From the NCBI GenBank assembly GCA_937883785.1, contig CALGDE010000162.1, forward strand, positions 1 to 56,557: a stretch of 56,557 nucleotides of DNA, given 5' to 3'. The notes below the pieces were generated by a model, which saw only the letters and a program-made list of their open reading frames with translations, did no database searches and was not told where the DNA came from. Shown here piece by piece: positions 5,343-46,786 of the stretch (positions within the stretch are counted from its first letter, which is position 1; each line of letters starts with the position of its first letter). This stretch comes from an uncultured cyanobacterium. Lineage in GTDB: Bacteria; Cyanobacteriota; Cyanobacteriia; CACIAM-69d. The position numbers were made by a program, and so were the translations under genes.

Positions 5343-6815
5343 TTATCGGGTCAGCTTCTTCGGCACGGGATCGCGGCGCCACACCAGCCCCCAAACCCCT
5401 GCTAACAGGATCCAGCCCAGTAGCCCGATACGCACGTCAAATAAGGTAACGTCGAAAATATGAAACAGGGCCAGACTAACAAAGCCCAGCCAAATAGATA
5501 GCGCCACCGGGCGATCGCCCCGAGACAACCCCCGCACCACTAAAAATCCCCGCGCCAAAACCCAGCCCACCGCACCAAATAGGGACAGGGTAGCGAGCCA
5601 CCCGCTTTCCGCCGCCAACATCAACAGCAAATTGTGGGGGTGTCCCATCCACACTTGGGTTGCTCCTTCGTACAGGGGTGAGAAGTTACGCAACCCCCAA
5701 CCCAGTGCCGGGCGCTGCCAGCTTAAATCCCATGCAAAATCCCATTGGGTGGAGCGCAGGGTTGCCACTGGACGATTGGGATACAGGCTGTCGTTCAGGC
5801 GTGCCCAAATAAATCGCGGCACGATCATCCGCAGGGGAGCGGCCACTGCGTCGGGGGCAAAGGCGGCTCCCAGAATAATGGCGATCACCCCCATCACTCC
5901 CTGCCATAGCCAATGCCAGCCGATCACCACCGCCCACGCTAAGGTCATCAATAGTCCCAGCGCCCAGGCATTGCGAGAGTCTGTAAGGAGTAACCCCGCC
6001 GCCGTCAACGCCAAGGTAGTTCCCAAGCTGGCGATCGCCAGCTTTTGATTGGGGCGGGGGCGATCGCGATTTTCCCAAACGTCTACGGCGAGTCCCAGGG
6101 CGATCGTCCACACCACCACGCAATAGCTGGCGGTGACGTTGGCGTATTCAAACACCGATGCCAGACGCCCTACCGGATTGCCCCCCGCCGCCAGTTGCCA
6201 GTTGATCACGCCCAAAATCTGCACCGGTCCAGCCCACCAGCCCAGCAGTTGCCCAATGCCGATGCCCACCACCGGTCCGCCCCCCAATACCACCAGCCAC
6301 GCCAGTTGCCGCAATTGATTGACGCCAACCACCAGGCGGCTGAGCACCCAGAACACAAAGAAATAGGGCAAAAAATTCGCTAGCCCCAGCGCTGCTTCCC
6401 CCTGGTCCACAGCGCCAATGATGCCCAGCACCATCACCAGGGCGATCGCCCCCAAAATCCACGGCAAAGGATGGGGCGAAAAAAACGCGCCTCCCCCCTT
6501 GTTAAGGGGCTGGGGGGGAATCCTCGATATTTCCCTCGTTTTTTCAGAGCCTTGTCGTGGCCCCAATCCTTGAGGGATCCCTCTATCCCCCCTTAATAAG
6601 GGGGGCTTTTCTTTTTCTTTCCTAAGTGAAACCGTGGTTAAGATCGTGGCAGCCAGGCAAAATGTTGCGCCGATCGCCGGGCTGAAAGGCAGCACCAAAA
6701 TGCCAAATTGGGCAAAATACCAAGGGCGTTGATATCGCGGCTCCGGGTGCGCCTGTAGCCATGCTCCCCAGCGCGATCGCCCCTGCGCCCAAGCCGTAAC
6801 AACTTTACTTACCAT
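5343..6815 (-). CDS. O-antigen ligase / IctB-like multipass membrane protein with in-frame repeat insertion
   Basis: The 490-residue protein has about ten hydrophobic segments and the Wzy/O-antigen-ligase-like signature, including a large periplasmic loop with SVFEYANVTA and the conserved GWGLRNF and GHPHNLLL motifs. In cyanobacteria this superfamily includes IctB, once proposed to take up bicarbonate, and polysaccharide ligases or polymerases; the sequence alone does not decide between them. Residues of about 67-112 are polar, Gly/Pro/Lys-rich and unlike the rest. They are encoded by an inverted-repeat element at 6493-6605 read in frame, placed between the first and later membrane spans. The neighbours do not form a polysaccharide cluster. 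Confidence 0.8.
   Translation of the reverse strand: MVSKVVTAWAQGRSRWGAWLQAHPEPRYQRPWYFAQFGILVLPFSPAIGATFCLAATILTTVSLRKEKEKPPLLRGDRGIPQGLGPRQGSEKTREISRIPPQPLNKGGGAFFSPHPLPWILGAIALVMVLGIIGAVDQGEAALGLANFLPYFFVFWVLSRLVVGVNQLRQLAWLVVLGGGPVVGIGIGQLLGWWAGPVQILGVINWQLAAGGNPVGRLASVFEYANVTASYCVVVWTIALGLAVDVWENRDRPRPNQKLAIASLGTTLALTAAGLLLTDSRNAWALGLLMTLAWAVVIGWHWLWQGVMGVIAIILGAAFAPDAVAAPLRMIVPRFIWARLNDSLYPNRPVATLRSTQWDFAWDLSWQRPALGWGLRNFSPLYEGATQVWMGHPHNLLLMLAAESGWLATLSLFGAVGWVLARGFLVVRGLSRGDRPVALSIWLGFVSLALFHIFDVTLFDVRIGLLGWILLAGVWGLVWRRDPVPKKLTR
6493..6605. repeat. Palindromic-end repeat inserted in frame in the IctB-like gene
   Basis: A 113-bp segment begins with CCCCCCTTGTTAAGGGG and ends with CCCCCCTTAATAAGGGGGG. 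The two ends are imperfect inverted repeats of about 29 bp (CCCCCCTTGTTAAGGGGCTG against CCCCCCTTATTAAGGGGGGA read inward), and each end is itself palindromic. On the coding strand it reads through as a Pro/Gly/Arg-rich peptide (KPPLLRGDRG at one end, PPQPLNKGGG at the other). Repeats with this CCCCCTTAA-AAGGGGG core are common in cyanobacterial genomes. Confidence 0.75.
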
Positions 6816-7936: not shown

Positions 7937-9403
7937 CTAAAACGGCACAAATCGCGCCCGCAACTGTCCCGGAGCAACCCCATTGAAGACCCCCAAGATA
8001 ACCCCGGTGGCACGCACCCGCACCGCCGTTGAGCCATTTAAAAACTGGGAATCCAGCTGGGGTTCGGTAATCCCGCCCGTTAGCGCAATAAAGTCCTCCG
8101 CCCGGTTAAAGTCCGTAATCACATCCGCCGAGTTGATATCCAAGCCCGACAGCGCCACGTTCAACACAAAGCGGTCGCTGCCGGGACCGCCCGTCAATAC
8201 ATCTCGGGCGCGATCGCCCGCCAGCAAATCGTTGCCGGGACCGCCCGTCAACGTATCAAAATCGCGGCCGCCAAACAGGGCGTCGTCACCGTTACCGCCG
8301 TCCAGGTTATCGCTACCGCGATTGCCAAATAGCAGATCATTGCCGTCGCCGCCTATCAAGGCGTCATTATCTCGACCCGCCGCAATAATATCGTCACCGC
8401 CGCCCCCCTGCAGCGTGTCGTTACCGGCGTTGCTCAGGAGGCGATCATTACGGCTGGTGCCCACAAAGGTGTCGTTGCCTGAGTTGGACAGGGCCAGGGT
8501 GGTGTCAATCCAGCCTTGGTAGGCGGACACCCGCGTATCGGCAAAAATTTCCCCGAAACTGGTGTCGTTGCCGTCGGTAAAATCAATGCCCGGCGTGGTG
8601 GGACTAAAGCCGTAAGACACAATGCCGGCAATTTGACCGTTAACAAAGCCAGGACCGCCAGAGTCACCGCTGGTGGAGCCCACCTCCAAGTTGCCCACGC
8701 CTATGCCGCGAATGCCGTATTCTCGCCCGATGGCGTCATTGGTGGGCTGACCGCTGTCAAAGTCGTAGCCTAGCTGGGTGCCGGGAATCACCCCCGGGGA
8801 AAACACATCCCCCAACAGGTCATAGCGATTTTGCCCCGCCCGCCGAATGGGAACTTCCGCGCTGGGCACTTCCCCCGTAAAGCCAGTGCCGGGCGTGCCA
8901 TAGCCTGCCCGCTGGGAAATTTGCCCCACCTCATTGGAGCCGCGGAAAATATCGTAGCGATTGGCTCCGTCGGGGGGCACCGCGCCTAGCTCCAAAATGG
9001 CAATATCGTTGTTGGAGTCGCGATCGGCAGTCCAGTCGGGATGGATAAAGACCCGGCTTACGGGCAGTACCGTGCGTCCTTCAACGGTGTCAAAGCGCAC
9101 CCGCAGGGGGCCAGGGTTGGGATTTAAATTGGCAGATCCGTCGGGATTATTAAAACAGTGGGCCGCCGTCAAAATGTGGCGACCGGACAGCAGCAGAGAC
9201 CCGGAACAAAATGTCGACTCGGACAGATCTCCCACCCGCGCCACACCGTCCAAACCGGTGCCCACCTGGCTAATAAACCGAGAGTCGTTAGGATCTTGGC
9301 TGGGCACAGAAATACGCGATCGCCGGGGCGCTAAGTCGTCATCGGAAGGGGATCGCCGAAAGGGAGCAAGGACGTCGTCGAGGTTTGACACTGAGGAGGG
9401 CAT
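7937..9403 (-). CDS. Secreted trypsin-like serine protease with RTX calcium-binding repeats (paralogue A)
   Basis: Residues of about 35-310 form a chymotrypsin/trypsin-fold (S1) domain with a complete triad: His82 in LTAAHC, Asp133 in NNDIAIL and Ser248 in GDSGGP. Residues of about 315-415 carry tandem RTX nonapeptides of the GGxGxDxLx type (GNDTLQGGG, GNDLLFGNRG), which bind calcium. The protein then ends with a short domain closing in RARFVPF. There is no N-terminal signal peptide, as expected for type I secretion through a C-terminal signal. It should act outside the cell, folding on exposure to calcium. Its closest relative is the adjacent upstream gene, so the pair is a tandem duplication. 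No type I exporter genes are next to it. Confidence 0.88.
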   Translation of the reverse strand: MPSSVSNLDDVLAPFRRSPSDDDLAPRRSRISVPSQDPNDSRFISQVGTGLDGVARVGDLSESTFCSGSLLLSGRHILTAAHCFNNPDGSANLNPNPGPLRVRFDTVEGRTVLPVSRVFIHPDWTADRDSNNDIAILELGAVPPDGANRYDIFRGSNEVGQISQRAGYGTPGTGFTGEVPSAEVPIRRAGQNRYDLLGDVFSPGVIPGTQLGYDFDSGQPTNDAIGREYGIRGIGVGNLEVGSTSGDSGGPGFVNGQIAGIVSYGFSPTTPGIDFTDGNDTSFGEIFADTRVSAYQGWIDTTLALSNSGNDTFVGTSRNDRLLSNAGNDTLQGGGGDDIIAAGRDNDALIGGDGNDLLFGNRGSDNLDGGNGDDALFGGRDFDTLTGGPGNDLLAGDRARDVLTGGPGSDRFVLNVALSGLDINSADVITDFNRAEDFIALTGGITEPQLDSQFLNGSTAVRVRATGVILGVFNGVAPGQLRARFVPF

Positions 9404-9624: not shown

Positions 9625-11106
9625 TCAAAAAGGTGCAAACCGCCCCACCAATTGAGCAGGAGTCACGTTATTCACCACGCCAATGATGGCTCCCGTAGCT
9701 GCCACCCGCACCGCAGTGGCATTACCAAGAAAATCAAGCGCAAGCTGGGGCTCCGTAACGCCATTGGTTAACAGCAGCACGTCCTCACCAGAAAAGTCCG
9801 TGATCACGTCCGCATTGCCCACCACGCCATCGGACAGGGACGGGTTCAGCACAAAGCGATCGCTGCCGGGGCCGCCCGTCAGCACATCCCGCAGGCGATC
9901 GCCGCTCAGCAAATCATTACCAGGGCCGCCCGTTAAGGTGTCAAAGCCCCGACCGCCAAACAGCCGGTCATTGCCATTCCCCCCATCCAAATTATCGTGA
10001 CCTCGATTGCCAAACATCAGGTCATCACCGTCGCTACCCAGAAGCACATCGCCCCCGCGTCCAGCGGCGATTAAATCATTGCCGCCGTTGCCCTGCACCG
10101 TGTCGTTGCCCGCGTTGCTAAACAGGCGATCATCTCGGCTGGTGCCCACGAACGTGTCATTACCCGCGTTCGACTGGGCCAAGGTCAGATCAATCCAGCC
10201 TTGGTAAAAGGACACGCGAGTGTCGCCAAAAATTTCCCCAAAGCTAGTGTCGTTGGGATCGGTCACGTCAACGCCTGGGATATTAGGGCTTTGCCCATAG
10301 GACGCCACCCCGGCAATTTGCCCGTTCAGGAATGCTGGTCCCCCAGAATCTCCCCCCGATGCGCCAATTTCTGTGTTGCCCACCCCTAAATTAGGGGTGC
10401 CAAACTCTCGCCCCAGAGCGTCATTTTGGGGCAGTCCGTTGTCAAAGTCATATACCAGCTGGGATCCGGGAATCACCCCTGGAGAAATTTGCTCGCCCAC
10501 TAGCTCGTAGCGGTTTTGCCCAAAGCGCTTAACAGGAACCGATCCCTGGATTTCTCCGGCAAATCCTGTACCGGCGGCACCGTAGCCCACCCGCTGAAAC
10601 ACCTGTCCCACTTCTGTGTTGCCGCGAAAAATATCGTAGCGATTCGCCGCATCGGGGGGCACCCCTGCCAGCTCAATGATGGCAATGTCGTTGTTGTCGG
10701 CTACGCCGGTCCATCCGGGGTGAACAAAAATCCTGCTGACGGGCACAATGTTGCGCCCGACGGCGGTGTCGAAGGTGACCTGGTACGCCGCTGGATTGGG
10801 GTTTAGGTTGGGGCGATCGCCCGGATCCACGTTAAAACAGTGGGCTGCGGTCAACACATGGCGACCGGACAAGAGAAGAGCGCCGGTGCAGCTAATGTCC
10901 CCTTGTCCAAATCCCACAACGCCGTCGAAGCCGGCCCCCGCTGGCACAATAAACCGGGGATCGTTGGGATCTTCACTGGGCACAGAGATTCTAGAGCGAC
11001 GCGGAGCACCAGAAAGGTCAGACGGGCTGTGGCCAGAGAAATGATTGTCAGGCAGGTTACTAAGTAGATCTAGGCGATCGCCCAAACCAAACGGCAACGT
11101 ATCCAT
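9625..11106 (-). CDS. Secreted trypsin-like serine protease with RTX calcium-binding repeats (paralogue B)
   Basis: The 493-residue protein has the same layout as its downstream neighbour. The S1 domain has His89 in LTAAHC, Asp140 in DNNDIAI and Ser254 in GGDSGGP, followed by RTX nonapeptides (GNDTVQGNG, GNDLIAAGRG, GNDRLFGGRG) and a short C-terminal domain ending VGRFAPF. The N-terminal 35 residues differ most between the two, whereas the start of the protease domain (RRSRISVPS-DPND) is nearly identical. Unlike a zymogen cleaved from a signal peptide, it has no hydrophobic leader, so type I secretion is inferred. About 220 bases separate the genes, so co-transcription is possible but not certain. 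Confidence 0.88.
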   Translation of the reverse strand: MDTLPFGLGDRLDLLSNLPDNHFSGHSPSDLSGAPRRSRISVPSEDPNDPRFIVPAGAGFDGVVGFGQGDISCTGALLLSGRHVLTAAHCFNVDPGDRPNLNPNPAAYQVTFDTAVGRNIVPVSRIFVHPGWTGVADNNDIAIIELAGVPPDAANRYDIFRGNTEVGQVFQRVGYGAAGTGFAGEIQGSVPVKRFGQNRYELVGEQISPGVIPGSQLVYDFDNGLPQNDALGREFGTPNLGVGNTEIGASGGDSGGPAFLNGQIAGVASYGQSPNIPGVDVTDPNDTSFGEIFGDTRVSFYQGWIDLTLAQSNAGNDTFVGTSRDDRLFSNAGNDTVQGNGGNDLIAAGRGGDVLLGSDGDDLMFGNRGHDNLDGGNGNDRLFGGRGFDTLTGGPGNDLLSGDRLRDVLTGGPGSDRFVLNPSLSDGVVGNADVITDFSGEDVLLLTNGVTEPQLALDFLGNATAVRVAATGAIIGVVNNVTPAQLVGRFAPF

Positions 11107-12238: not shown

Positions 12239-13069
12239 AGCCCACTCCCTTTCCCCAGGACGAAAATACGATTGTCACGATACCCATCATTACAAGGTGG
12301 CGACAGAAATTAAGCTCAGAACGTTAAGCAATCATATTATTGATTTTCCATAAAGTACCCGCTGATTAGGGGCTGTCATCATCTAACCCTCAAAATCACG
12401 CGTTACAAGAGTCTCAGCCGCCAACATCTTTTTGCCCTAAAAAGCCCGTATTTCCGTGGTGGAAAGCACCTCGAATTTATTGGCAACAGGACCTAAACGC
12501 TAGTTTCCCCGTGCTCTGTTTCCTAGGGATGACGTGTAACAGTTTGCACTGTCAAATAGACCTCAATGCTACAGAAAATCTAGGCACATCGAAGAAAAAA
12601 TCAAGAATCATACGGACCCCCGATGCTCACCAACGCATTCAGTAAAATAGACCAGTCCAAATAGTGCTTAAGGGCACTGAAGAACGGCAAAAAATAGTGC
12701 CTGAACTGTGTGGAATGGGCAAAGAAAGAACGTATTTATTATGTAATTGAGGTGCTTGTTTACTAATAATTGCCTGTCTGATCCTTATTTCAAGGGACTA
12801 GAGGCACCTGTGAAGAAGCACTTTTTCTATGCTCGCTTTCCCCATTTTCCGTTTTAAACTTATGTCTCCTAAGGCCAAGTTAAAAACGAGCTCACGCCCT
12901 ATTTTGAGCCTGTGCTTTGAGTCTGTAGCTGGGATATTTCATCCCGTTTCAGTGTTTTCTAAAACTGCCGACATTGCCGAGTTGCTGCGCCAAAATGGTG
13001 GCAATCGGCTACGGCAGAATCAATAGAAGCCTGTCAGTGTCCGTCTCCATACCACCGTAAGGAGGTTTT
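12239..13069. other. Non-coding gap with a degenerate repeat
   Basis: This 830-base gap separates divergent genes. It holds a degenerate family-A element (12370-12492). The rest has no recognisable gene. A 65-codon frame at 12829-13026 lies directly ahead of the next gene but has an unconvincing composition and no family resemblance. The promoter for the gene at 13070 should lie here. Confidence 0.5.
12370..12492 (+). mobile_element. Family A MITE-like element, copy 1 (degenerate)
   Basis: The left end GGGCTGTCATCATC and the later word GTCTCAGCC match the better-kept copies. The right end is eroded (GGCAACAGGAC). It is preceded by TTAG and followed by CTAA, both of YTAR form. Its 123-bp length fits the intact members (124-126 bp). 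Confidence 0.55.
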
Positions 13070-17157: not shown

Positions 17158-17366
17158 GGTTTGATGACTTTCTAATGATCTTTTCGACTAATCTTTTCGA
17201 CCTTTTTTGCCGCCCAGCATTAGGCAAGAAGTCGAAAACGCTGCGGAAAATAGCTCTAGAGAAATTGCTTCGCCACACCACAAAGCCGACGATTCAAGGT
17301 CAAAGCACTAGGAGCATCGTCTAGGCGATCCCCTAAACCTTTTTATCAATACGCCATTACTTCTAG

Positions 17367-17490
17367 GGGCGATTATCATCCAAAGCTCAAAGCCAGTAAA
17401 AACAAGGGTTTCAGCCCCTAATTGCTTTATTTTGAAAGGGTCTAGATCCCTCACTGTGTGAAGCTTCCAGCACTTAATTGATGACATACC
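17367..17490 (+). mobile_element. Family A MITE-like element, copy 2 (nrtD-narB gap)
   Basis: The element runs from GGGCGATTATCATC to TGATGACATACC and is flanked on both sides by CTAG (17363-17366 and 17491-17494), a perfect 4-bp duplication. The internal TTTCAGCCCC pairs with the left end. It lies just after nrtD. Confidence 0.75.
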
Positions 17491-17507
17491 CTAGTTGCTT
17501 ACTCAAC

Positions 17508-20525: not shown

Positions 20526-20574
20526 GGTGAGAGTCGGCAGCGTAACCGATAACAATTAAATAAAATTCAGCTAG

Positions 20575-20700
20575 GGCGTGTCATCAATTCAGTGCCAGAA
20601 GCCTTACACAGTGGGGAGTAAACGCCCTTTTTAAACAAAAAGTGTTAGGGGCTGAAACCCCTTATAGCTCGTGACTTTGAGATTTAATTGGTGACAGCTC
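20575..20700 (-). mobile_element. Family A MITE-like element, copy 3 (nrtA-nrtC gap)
   Basis: Read on the minus strand it begins GAGCTGTCACCA and ends TGATGACACGCC. It is flanked by CTAG (20571-20574) and CTAA (20701-20704). Internal TTTCAGCCCC and AAAGGGCG motifs match the other copies. At 126 bp it sits between nrtA and nrtC, 46 bases before the nrtC start. Confidence 0.75.
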
Positions 20701-22435: not shown

Positions 22436-22607
22436 GGCATGTCATCGGCTAGGGGATCATCAATTCAGTGCCAGAAGCGTTACGCAGTGGGAGTGCACGC
22501 CCCTTGAAAACAAAATGTTTTGAAAAACAAAATGTTTTGAAAAACAAAATGTTCCGGGGCTGAAACCCTTGTGAATAGAGGCTTTAAGGCTTAAATGACG
22601 ACAGAAC
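22436..22607 (-). mobile_element. Family A MITE-like element, copy 4, enlarged
   Basis: Both ends are recognisable (GGCATGTCATC at low coordinates, TGACGACAGAAC at high coordinates), flanked by CTAG (22432-22435) and CTAA (22608-22611). It is 172 bp instead of about 125. The extra length comes from a second end-like segment near 22450-22470 and from a 17-bp tandem array at 22506-22555. Confidence 0.65.
22506..22555. repeat. 17-bp tandem repeat inside the nrtB-nrtA gap
   Basis: The unit AAAACAAAATGTTTTGA occurs about 2.7 times head to tail. Each unit is itself nearly palindromic (CAAAA/TTTTG). It expands the centre of a family-A element. Confidence 0.85.
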
Positions 22608-22721
22608 CTAAGCGCAAGATGCAGGGAACTGTTCTATGGCGAAGGTGTGATGGCGTAAAGAGGAGCGAACTCGCCACGACAGGGCTGGTGATGTGAACCA
22701 AGCCCCACCATGGCGTGGGTA

Positions 22722-32174: not shown

Positions 32175-32356
32175 AAAACTTGCTCGGTAATATGCCTAAG
32201 GCAACACCCGTCTGCCAGTAAAGAATCAGACATTTATTGTGGGCGTAGCCCTTAGGATCGGGTTGTCTAACTATTAAGTTTAAATCCCAAATCGAGCCCT
32301 GTAGCCTAGTCCCAAAGTATTACTTGTTCCCTTTAGCTTTTAGTCGCTTTCACTAG

Positions 32357-32481
32357 GGGCTGTCATCATTTAGAGTCCAAAGCTCGTAACTGTAAGGATT
32401 TCAGCCCCTAGCACTTTTTCCTATAAGAGGGCGCGTACTCCCTGCCACGTAAGGCTTCTGGTACGCAACTGATGACACGCC
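32357..32481 (+). mobile_element. Family A MITE-like element, copy 5
   Basis: The best-preserved copy, 125 bp, runs from GGGCTGTCATCA to TGATGACACGCC, flanked by CTAG at 32353-32356 and 32482-32485. AGGGGCTG pairs with CAGCCCCT in the left half, and AGGGCGCGT pairs with ACACGCCCT in the right half. Confidence 0.8.
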
Positions 32482-32485
32482 CTAG

Positions 32486-32611
32486 GGGCTGTCATCATTT
32501 AAAGTCCAAAGCCTATAACTGTGAGGGTTTCAGCCTTAAGCACTTTCTCCTTTAAAAGGGCGCGTACTTCCCACAGGGTGAGGCTTCTGGCAATTATATT
32601 GATGACACGTC
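32486..32611 (+). mobile_element. Family A MITE-like element, copy 6
   Basis: It starts directly after the CTAG that ends copy 5 and runs 126 bp to TGATGACACGTC, followed by CTGA. It is in the same orientation as copy 5 and clearly similar along its length, but its left hairpin is weakened (CAGCCTTA). Confidence 0.78.
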
Positions 32612-44419: not shown

Positions 44420-45223
44420 ATGAAAATTCTCTCTGTACTCACTTCAGCAGCCGTGGCTAGCAGTCTAGCCTTCACACTAGCAGGACAAGCAAGCGCTACC
44501 ACCTTTAAGTTTGACTGGGAAAAGGCCGATGGCACCAACCTAGGCAAAAGCGAGGTCGACGGTAAGGCTCAAAAACTTTGGGTTAATCATGGCGTCGGTT
44601 CTTACGATTCCATCAACACCACCTTTAACGATGTAACTGATGAGTTCACGTTCTCTGCCGATTTCACTAATAAAGGTAATGCGATCGATGGAGGCTGGGT
44701 CGTAATCAGTGACGGTCCTAACCCTAAGAAGCACGACAAAGAATTCGCGATTCTTTATTTAGATGCAGTAAACGATCGCGTCACGGCCTATGCCTATAAC
44801 GGTCAAAACAACGCCAACAGCTTCAGAACCAATGAGCTATTGGGTTCTTGGGAAGGCATCATGAACTACGAGAATGAGAGTGGTAAGAGCTCCTTCAACT
44901 TCTCCATCGATGCCACCGAAATCAACGCACGGACCGATATTGGCAACAACTGGAAAGGACTCACTTTTGGCGAGCAAGTGGGCATTTGGTTCCACGCTGG
45001 ACGCAACACCAACGTGACCTACGATTCCAATACTGGCGATGTAACGAGCTTCAGCTCCCAGGCGAAGTGGTATGACACGATCGCCTTAGACACAGAAGTA
45101 GTTCCTGAAGCAGTACCCGAGCCCACTGCTCTGTTGGGACTAGGTTTGGTGGGCGGCGCCTTTGCCGTTTCCCGTCGTCGCAAGGATGGTTCCATTGCAA
45201 CTGAGGGAGCTGACTTGGCATAA
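44420..45223 (+). CDS. PEP-CTERM surface protein 1
   Basis: The 267-residue protein has a signal peptide (residues of about 1-26, cleavage after ASA). Its N-terminal TTFKFDWEKADG resembles cyanobacterial exosortase-dependent surface proteins. A central beta-rich domain contains the DGGWVVISDGPNP motif. The C-terminus has a PEP-CTERM sorting signal: PEPTALLGLGLVGGAF followed by SRRRK. The tail after the Arg cluster is unusually long (13 residues, acidic). It should be processed by an exosortase and displayed or released; no exosortase gene is in the window. A close paralogue lies 780 bases downstream. Confidence 0.88.
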   Translation: MKILSVLTSAAVASSLAFTLAGQASATTFKFDWEKADGTNLGKSEVDGKAQKLWVNHGVGSYDSINTTFNDVTDEFTFSADFTNKGNAIDGGWVVISDGPNPKKHDKEFAILYLDAVNDRVTAYAYNGQNNANSFRTNELLGSWEGIMNYENESGKSSFNFSIDATEINARTDIGNNWKGLTFGEQVGIWFHAGRNTNVTYDSNTGDVTSFSSQAKWYDTIALDTEVVPEAVPEPTALLGLGLVGGAFAVSRRRKDGSIATEGADLA

Positions 45224-46000: not shown

Positions 46001-46786
46001 ATGAAAGCTCTCTCATTAATTACTTCAGCAGCGATCGCGGGCGGCTTAGCCCTGAGCCTAGCTGGACAAGCAAGCGCCACCACCTTCAAATTTGACTGGG
46101 AAAAAGCTGACGGCGGCGGCTCCCAAGGTAAAAGCGCAGTAACCGGCAGAAATCAGCATATTTCGGTTAACCACAGCAAGGGTTATTACGAGTCAGTCAG
46201 CACTACCTTTGACGACATCACGGACGAATTCACTTTCTCCGCATCTTTTTCTGATAAGAACGGCAAAACGATTGACGGCGGCTGGGTCGTAATTAGCGAT
46301 GGCCCTAACCCTAAAGGACAAGGTGAAGAATATGCCATCTTTTACCTCGACGGTGTGAATAACACTGCCACCGGTTATGCCTACAACGGGCAGAATCGCT
46401 CCAATAGCTGGTCCACGAACTCGGATAACTATCTGGGAACCTGGGATATGAGCTACGCCAGCGGCAACGGCGAGTCTTCCCTTAGCTTCTCCCTTGACGC
46501 GGCAGACATTAATGCACGGACCGACATCGATCCGGACTGGAAAGGCGTAGCTTTCGCTGAGCAGGTGGGCATTTGGTTCCACGCTGGGTATGATACGAGC
46601 GTTAGCTACAACGGAGATGGTGAGGTCACCAGCTTCTCCTCCAACGCAGCCTGGTTTGACACTAATGCCCTAGACACGGAGGCAGTGCCTGAGCCCACTG
46701 CTTTGTTGGGACTAGGTTTGGTCGGCGGCGCCTTTGCCGTGTCCCGCCGTCGTAAGAACGAGCAGCTAGCTGAAGCTTCTGCTTAA
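46001..46786 (+). CDS. PEP-CTERM surface protein 2
   Basis: The 261-residue paralogue of the upstream gene has a signal peptide (cleavage after ASA), the same TTFKFDWEKADG start, DGGWVVISDGPNP in the core and a C-terminal VPEPTALLGLGLVGGAF-SRRRK sorting signal. I start at MKALSLITS; a TTG seven codons earlier keeps the frame but lies in the promoter block. The two proteins differ mainly in loops, which suggests duplication followed by divergence. A hairpin plus T-run follows at 46988-47019. Confidence 0.88.
   Translation: MKALSLITSAAIAGGLALSLAGQASATTFKFDWEKADGGGSQGKSAVTGRNQHISVNHSKGYYESVSTTFDDITDEFTFSASFSDKNGKTIDGGWVVISDGPNPKGQGEEYAIFYLDGVNNTATGYAYNGQNRSNSWSTNSDNYLGTWDMSYASGNGESSLSFSLDAADINARTDIDPDWKGVAFAEQVGIWFHAGYDTSVSYNGDGEVTSFSSNAAWFDTNALDTEAVPEPTALLGLGLVGGAFAVSRRRKNEQLAEASA

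Follow-up and report, generated by a model that had tools for sequence, protein, structure and literature searches.

A dispersed palindromic repeat probably captured in frame as a loop of a cyanobacterial membrane protein

In-frame capture of palindromic repeats by protein-coding genes is the hallmark of the Rickettsia palindromic elements (RPEs; Ogata 2000, 2002, via PMC10969869). Repetitive extragenic palindromes (REPs) of the GTAG/CGTC type also occur inside open reading frames (ORFs) of many species, including those of UvrD/REP helicases; in two Xanthomonas species, recB holds different REPs at roughly one and the same site (PMC3733652). Here we describe a palindromic repeat that is read in frame within a Wzy_C-family membrane protein gene of an uncultured cyanobacterium. 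The gene lies on a stretch of 56,557 nucleotides, referred to below as the window, which is contig CALGDE010000162.1 (C162) of the 4.84-Mb, 167-contig genome GCA_937883785.1 (G000).

RPEs and the present repeat are alike in being dispersed palindromic elements of 100-150 bp that stand in frame in unrelated genes and are presumably tolerated at permissive positions. Copies in several unrelated protein genes, as reported for RPEs, are found here in five genes of four families. RPEs are described as using one frame and encoding a conserved peptide, whereas the frames used here differ and open frames are not above the level of shuffled sequence; Rickettsia also belongs to a different phylum, and the likeness is one of size, structure and placement. 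GTAG/CGTC REPs are 20-40 bp stem-loops, or dimers of these, that carry a GTAG or CGTC tag and encode 20-30 residues (PMC3733652), whereas the present repeat is a double hairpin of 113-120 bp whose consensus has no such tag at the foot of either hairpin. Prokaryotic miniature inverted-repeat transposable elements (MITEs; reviewed in PMC10969869, with cyanobacterial Nezha and others) resemble it in being short (~70-300 bp), non-coding and multi-copy, and the repeat is likewise mostly intergenic and dispersed, with ~40 two-armed copies on many contigs. Terminal inverted repeats, ACGTCAGTTC...GAACTGACGT, can be recognised in 14 of the 25 copies aligned, and core-only copies do not have these outer arms. 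The repeat differs from MITEs in that the outer repeats are missing from every in-gene copy; no cognate transposase or target-site duplication has been identified for it.

In-frame palindrome capture is already known in kind from RPEs and intragenic REPs, and the cyanobacterial element is a new, well-traceable case, with a possibly broader implication for recurrent permissive loops. No report of this repeat, or of such capture in cyanobacterial proteins, was found in the literature searched, coverage of which was incomplete. Repeat-driven protein change outside Rickettsia has been called "conceivable" (PMC10969869), and concrete cases are supplied here, together with a helicase loop that, in at least three lineages, has taken up repeats unrelated to one another. 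Repeat capture is a small-scale route to new protein loops. In this free-living cyanobacterium several captures of one repeat can be traced, and occupied and empty sites can be compared among orthologues and also among paralogues within one genome. What becomes of a repeat after capture (a frame that is kept, a palindrome that is lost, a weak constraint) can thus be measured rather than guessed.

A dispersed repeat inside a Wzy_C-family gene

The host gene (5343..6815, minus strand) is a single uninterrupted ORF of 490 codons that spans the repeat, and encodes a polytopic membrane protein of the Wzy_C/O-antigen ligase superfamily (PF04932, 48.7 bits against a gathering cut-off of 31.7). A first-pass annotation, made from the letters of the window alone, had rightly described the frame as unbroken; its label "IctB-like" was too specific, and IctB identity was rejected (NCBIfam TIGR00947 has no match to the protein, and one orthologue reaches 28.7 bits where the cut-off is 366). 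Orthologues occur in 57 of 59 relatives, and a sequence search of the PDB returned no match. In one orthologue (L069, genome G013), another loop of the protein carries an expanded 15-bp tandem repeat that adds ~60 residues (LIPTGLIPTR.../TKGAG...).

The core of the repeat, 113 bp from hairpin to hairpin, occupies 6493..6605, as delimited by family alignment, consensus and RNA fold. Hairpins CCCCCCTTGTTAAGGGG and CCCCCCTTAATAAGGGGGG enclose inner G-run/GGATCC boxes. The first hairpin arm (6493..6511, CCCCCCTTGTTAAGGGGCT, its last bases degenerate) was placed by sequence and pattern match, and is followed by an inner box, GGGGGGGAATCC (6512..6523), that pairs in the family structure with GGGATCCC at 6574..6581 (family consensus GGGGGGATCC ... 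GGATCCCCCC). The second hairpin, CCCCCCTTAATAAGGGGGG (6587..6605), is perfect, with 0 mismatches to the pattern. The predicted RNA fold of the core has a free energy of -53.4 kcal/mol (z -2.5 against shuffles). Annotation of a 113-bp palindromic repeat at this place was correct in its coordinates; the net insertion relative to orthologues is slightly wider, at ~132 bp (~6489..6620, minus strand, residues ~66-109).

The inserted residues, KEKEKPPLLRGDRGIPQGLGPRQGSEKTREISRIPPQPLNKGGG, include P, G, R or K at 25 of 44 positions, in agreement with the loop of about 45 residues rich in these amino acids that had been annotated. Hydropathy also bears out its position between membrane spans, here predicted at ~34-65 and ~110-145. 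The loop is basic (10 basic and 5 acidic residues), which suggests that it lies on the cytoplasmic side.

The repeat belongs to a dispersed family. The hairpin pattern CCCCCCTTNNNAAGGGG has 115 matches in the genome, versus 5 for a reversed control (both strands, at most one mismatch, so that copies with more hairpin mismatches are undercounted). The 39 regions taken from the genome yielded ~40 two-armed copies, with a hairpin-to-hairpin spacing of 77-119 bp, mostly 88-101. The core consensus of the 25 aligned copies is GCCCCCCTTACCAAGGGGGGTTGGGGGGATCCTC...GGATCCCCCCTCAGTCCCCCCTTGATAAGGGGGGAAG, and the core is a larger imperfect inverted repeat by itself; as read from the alignment by eye, 11 of the 25 are core-only. 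Copies lie between convergent genes in 12 of the 22 cases with resolvable neighbours. Hairpins of a related kind are present in 25 of the 59 relatives. In another cyanobacterium (G028; L163-L192) the same hairpin is matched 86+92 times, in the arrangement GATCCCCCC-TAG-hairpin, and all places examined there are intergenic. An in-gene habit common to all cyanobacterial CCCCCCTT..AAGGGGGG repeats was rejected, since none of 15 examined places in G028 lies in a long ORF.

The insert in orthologues and in a sister species

The insert (44 residues, 132 bp) is missing from every one of the 11 orthologues of other genera that were aligned, in which the loop is empty by protein alignment, and in six independent orthologues the gap in the query exceeds that in the genome by 44 residues at this site. 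Repeat-free orthologues with a similar loop, which the first-pass annotation had named as evidence for an ancestral segment, are thus absent among these 11. The sole orthologue with the loop comes from the one sister species of the genus compared (G001, the metagenome-assembled genome (MAG) CALCTI010000390), where a decayed copy stands in frame at the identical codon and aligns to the window insert with no gaps other than one of 6 nt and one of 3 nt.

The loop is ~45 residues long in both species, which have few insert residues in common, and the palindrome has decayed in the G001 copy (fold z +0.33). Synonymous divergence (dS) between the two species is 0.85 for the insert, equal to that of the flanks (0.80), so that the capture is older than the species split. 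The ratio of nonsynonymous to synonymous divergence (omega) is 0.53 in the insert (95% 0.21-1.05; below 1 in 96.5% of bootstraps) and 0.11 in the flanks (0.08-0.16), with both sides of the insert strongly purified. The insert thus appears to be tolerated and weakly constrained, with a constraint five times weaker than that of the flanks.

In-frame copies in other genes and the origin of the loop

By spanning-ORF analysis and Pfam, at least five genes of this genome, from four protein families, contain a copy in frame. A search for the repeat elsewhere in frame, proposed in the earlier annotation, therefore succeeded, and the view that such capture is uncommon is only partly right, given the five genes here and descriptions of the phenomenon in other bacteria. 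A UvrD-type helicase (L098, contig C114, 3142-3257) carries the element as a 39-residue insert between motifs II and III (DEAQDS and GDPNQ), a U32 peptidase contains another (L079, C30), and two NB-ARC/TPR paralogues hold one each (L084, C52, 966-1085; L101, C119, 2872-2988). Partial copies with relatives of comparable length at the site (L089, L097) were not counted, nor were three whose overlap is confined to the 5' end of an ORF, the true start of which probably lies downstream of the repeat (L078, L105, L109). Orthologues of the helicase and of the peptidase without the element were found; an orthologue of the peptidase was looked for in the sister species G001 and not found.

The NB-ARC genes provide empty sites within the same genome. 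Three paralogues (C144, C123, C27) are empty at this codon and are 73-88% identical in DNA over the upstream stretch. The two filled copies share the codon, and their inserts are 90% identical while their flanks are only 57-65% identical, so one gene must have received its insert after the duplication; this suggests gene conversion or a second (site-specific) insertion at the same codon. No target-site duplication is evident in the comparison of filled and empty paralogues, the empty sites being 12-27% diverged.

All in-gene copies are core-only (5/11 versus 0/14 with outer arms; Fisher p 0.009, the split having been picked post hoc). An element pre-adapted for coding was rejected: repeat copies have on average 1.28 of 6 frames open, versus 1.51 for shuffled sequence, and the in-gene copies use different frames (PPL.RG, PL.KG, PYQGG). 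They also stand in both orientations relative to their host genes. Because open frames show no excess and the frames used differ, passive capture with a filter explains the data. In a rough estimate that assumes 85% coding density and starts from ~35 surviving intergenic copies, ~200 in-gene landings would have occurred, of which ~7% (one third of lengths x 1.28/6 frames), or ~14, would be readable. Five are seen, so passive capture with a reading-frame and loop filter is enough, and selection for the loop is not needed.

We hypothesize that a non-coding, MITE-like palindromic element with a core of ~115-120 bp entered the ancestor of the Wzy_C-family gene before the split between the two species known in the genus. 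With a length change divisible by three, an open frame and a non-conserved loop of cytoplasmic type, the protein would have remained usable and the copy would have survived. The element would then have been translated as a flexible loop of Pro, Gly and basic residues that drifted under weak constraint, its frame persisting as the palindrome decayed. If insertion is random, the majority of copies that land in a gene would disrupt it and be lost, leaving those with a fitting length, an open frame and a harmless place, and the same frame-and-loop filter could account for the in-frame copies of the four or more other genes. We assign a probability of about 0.87 to this account as a whole, that is, a dispersed palindromic element inserted before the species split, passively captured and tolerated as a loop. 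The element presumably moved as a transposable unit, and the captured loop probably has no function of its own.

Several observations weigh against passive capture as a tolerated loop. First, neither a transposase, nor a target-site duplication, nor excision has been demonstrated for the element, and production of the Wzy_C-family protein with its loop is presumed. Second, an AlphaFold2 model built from three sequences has a mean predicted local distance difference test score of 38, too low to place the loop. Finally, a TAA occurs elsewhere in the G001 Wzy_C-family gene, and another lies inside the captured insert of the G001 UvrD helicase (L114, contig C428). These codons are either errors in a fragmented MAG or signs of real early gene loss, and loss would weaken the case that the insert is tolerated.

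Among the alternatives, it is unlikely that the captured loop is a selected segment in use, for instance with a regulatory or partner-binding role in the membrane protein. An insert omega below 1 in most bootstraps would fit such a role, as would a length of 45 residues kept in both species after DNA pairing was lost, but constraint far weaker than in the flanks and the few shared residues speak against it, and frame retention is already enforced by the downstream protein. "Domestication", the term used in the first-pass annotation, accordingly holds for an insert that is in frame and tolerated; a selected function is not shown by a dN/dS of 0.53.

We consider it improbable that the repeat is kept as a nucleic-acid structure (an mRNA hairpin, an antisense terminator or a DNA site) with the peptide as by-product. 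The hairpins are strong, the family is enriched between convergent genes, and a terminator scan found CTTTTCTTTT on the plus strand right after hairpin CCCCCCTTAATAAGGGGGG, forming a terminator-like hairpin with a T-run; this good site is antisense to the gene, which rules out a terminator acting on the Wzy_C-family gene itself. However, in-gene copies occur in both orientations, and in the sister species the structure is gone while the reading frame and loop remain, so a tolerated protein loop fits better.

That the gene is a decaying pseudogene with a coincidentally open frame across the element is quite improbable: the in-frame TAA of the sister copy would agree with decay, but the 490-residue ORF is intact in the window, purifying selection is strong on both sides of the insert, and five genes of one genome share the in-frame pattern. 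An ancestral protein segment merely resembling the repeat has a negligible chance of being correct, since the orthologue alignment shows it in no other genus, the DNA fits the family consensus, and nothing was found in its favour.

The helicase motif II-III loop and other features of the window

Across 145 genomes of the class, nearly all readable orthologues of the UvrD-type helicase have a short loop between motifs II and III, whereas 11 have 26-53 extra residues in it. Besides L098, inserts lie in G027, G129, G076, G054, G143, G086 and G128 (L193-L200, L151), from different cyanobacterial families. In family f1 the insert is the present element. Five f23 genomes carry an unrelated palindrome, CCCTCACCCCCCAGCCCC, which is multi-copy in G027 (48 matches), and two f32 genomes carry short tandem G-rich/C-rich repeats. 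The loop of G087 holds a remnant of the f23 type, and the insert of G097 is not assignable to a repeat. Since the repeats in f1, f23 and f32 are unrelated, at least three independent captures have occurred in this one loop, although the five f23 cases may go back to a single one. That unrelated short repeats throughout the cyanobacteria land time and again, and possibly with advantage, in certain loops such as this one is a tentative suggestion that we consider doubtful; if it were true, repeat families would keep supplying cyanobacteria with new protein loops, some of them functional.

The window also contains a second dispersed family (CTAGGGGCTGTCATCATTTAAAG...GGGTTTCAGCCCCTA), with six copies in both orientations (12366-12423, 17363-17497, 20568-20660, 22541-22610, 32353-32461, 32482-32590). 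Tandem paralogous genes for trypsin-like proteases with C-terminal RTX-type repeats lie at 7937-9403 and ~9630-11090, with 73-82% DNA identity in several blocks and a spacing of ~1685 bp. Two further proteins have PEP-CTERM-like C-termini (VPEPTALLGLGLVGGAFAVSRRRK), encoded at 45107-45184 and 46679-46756.
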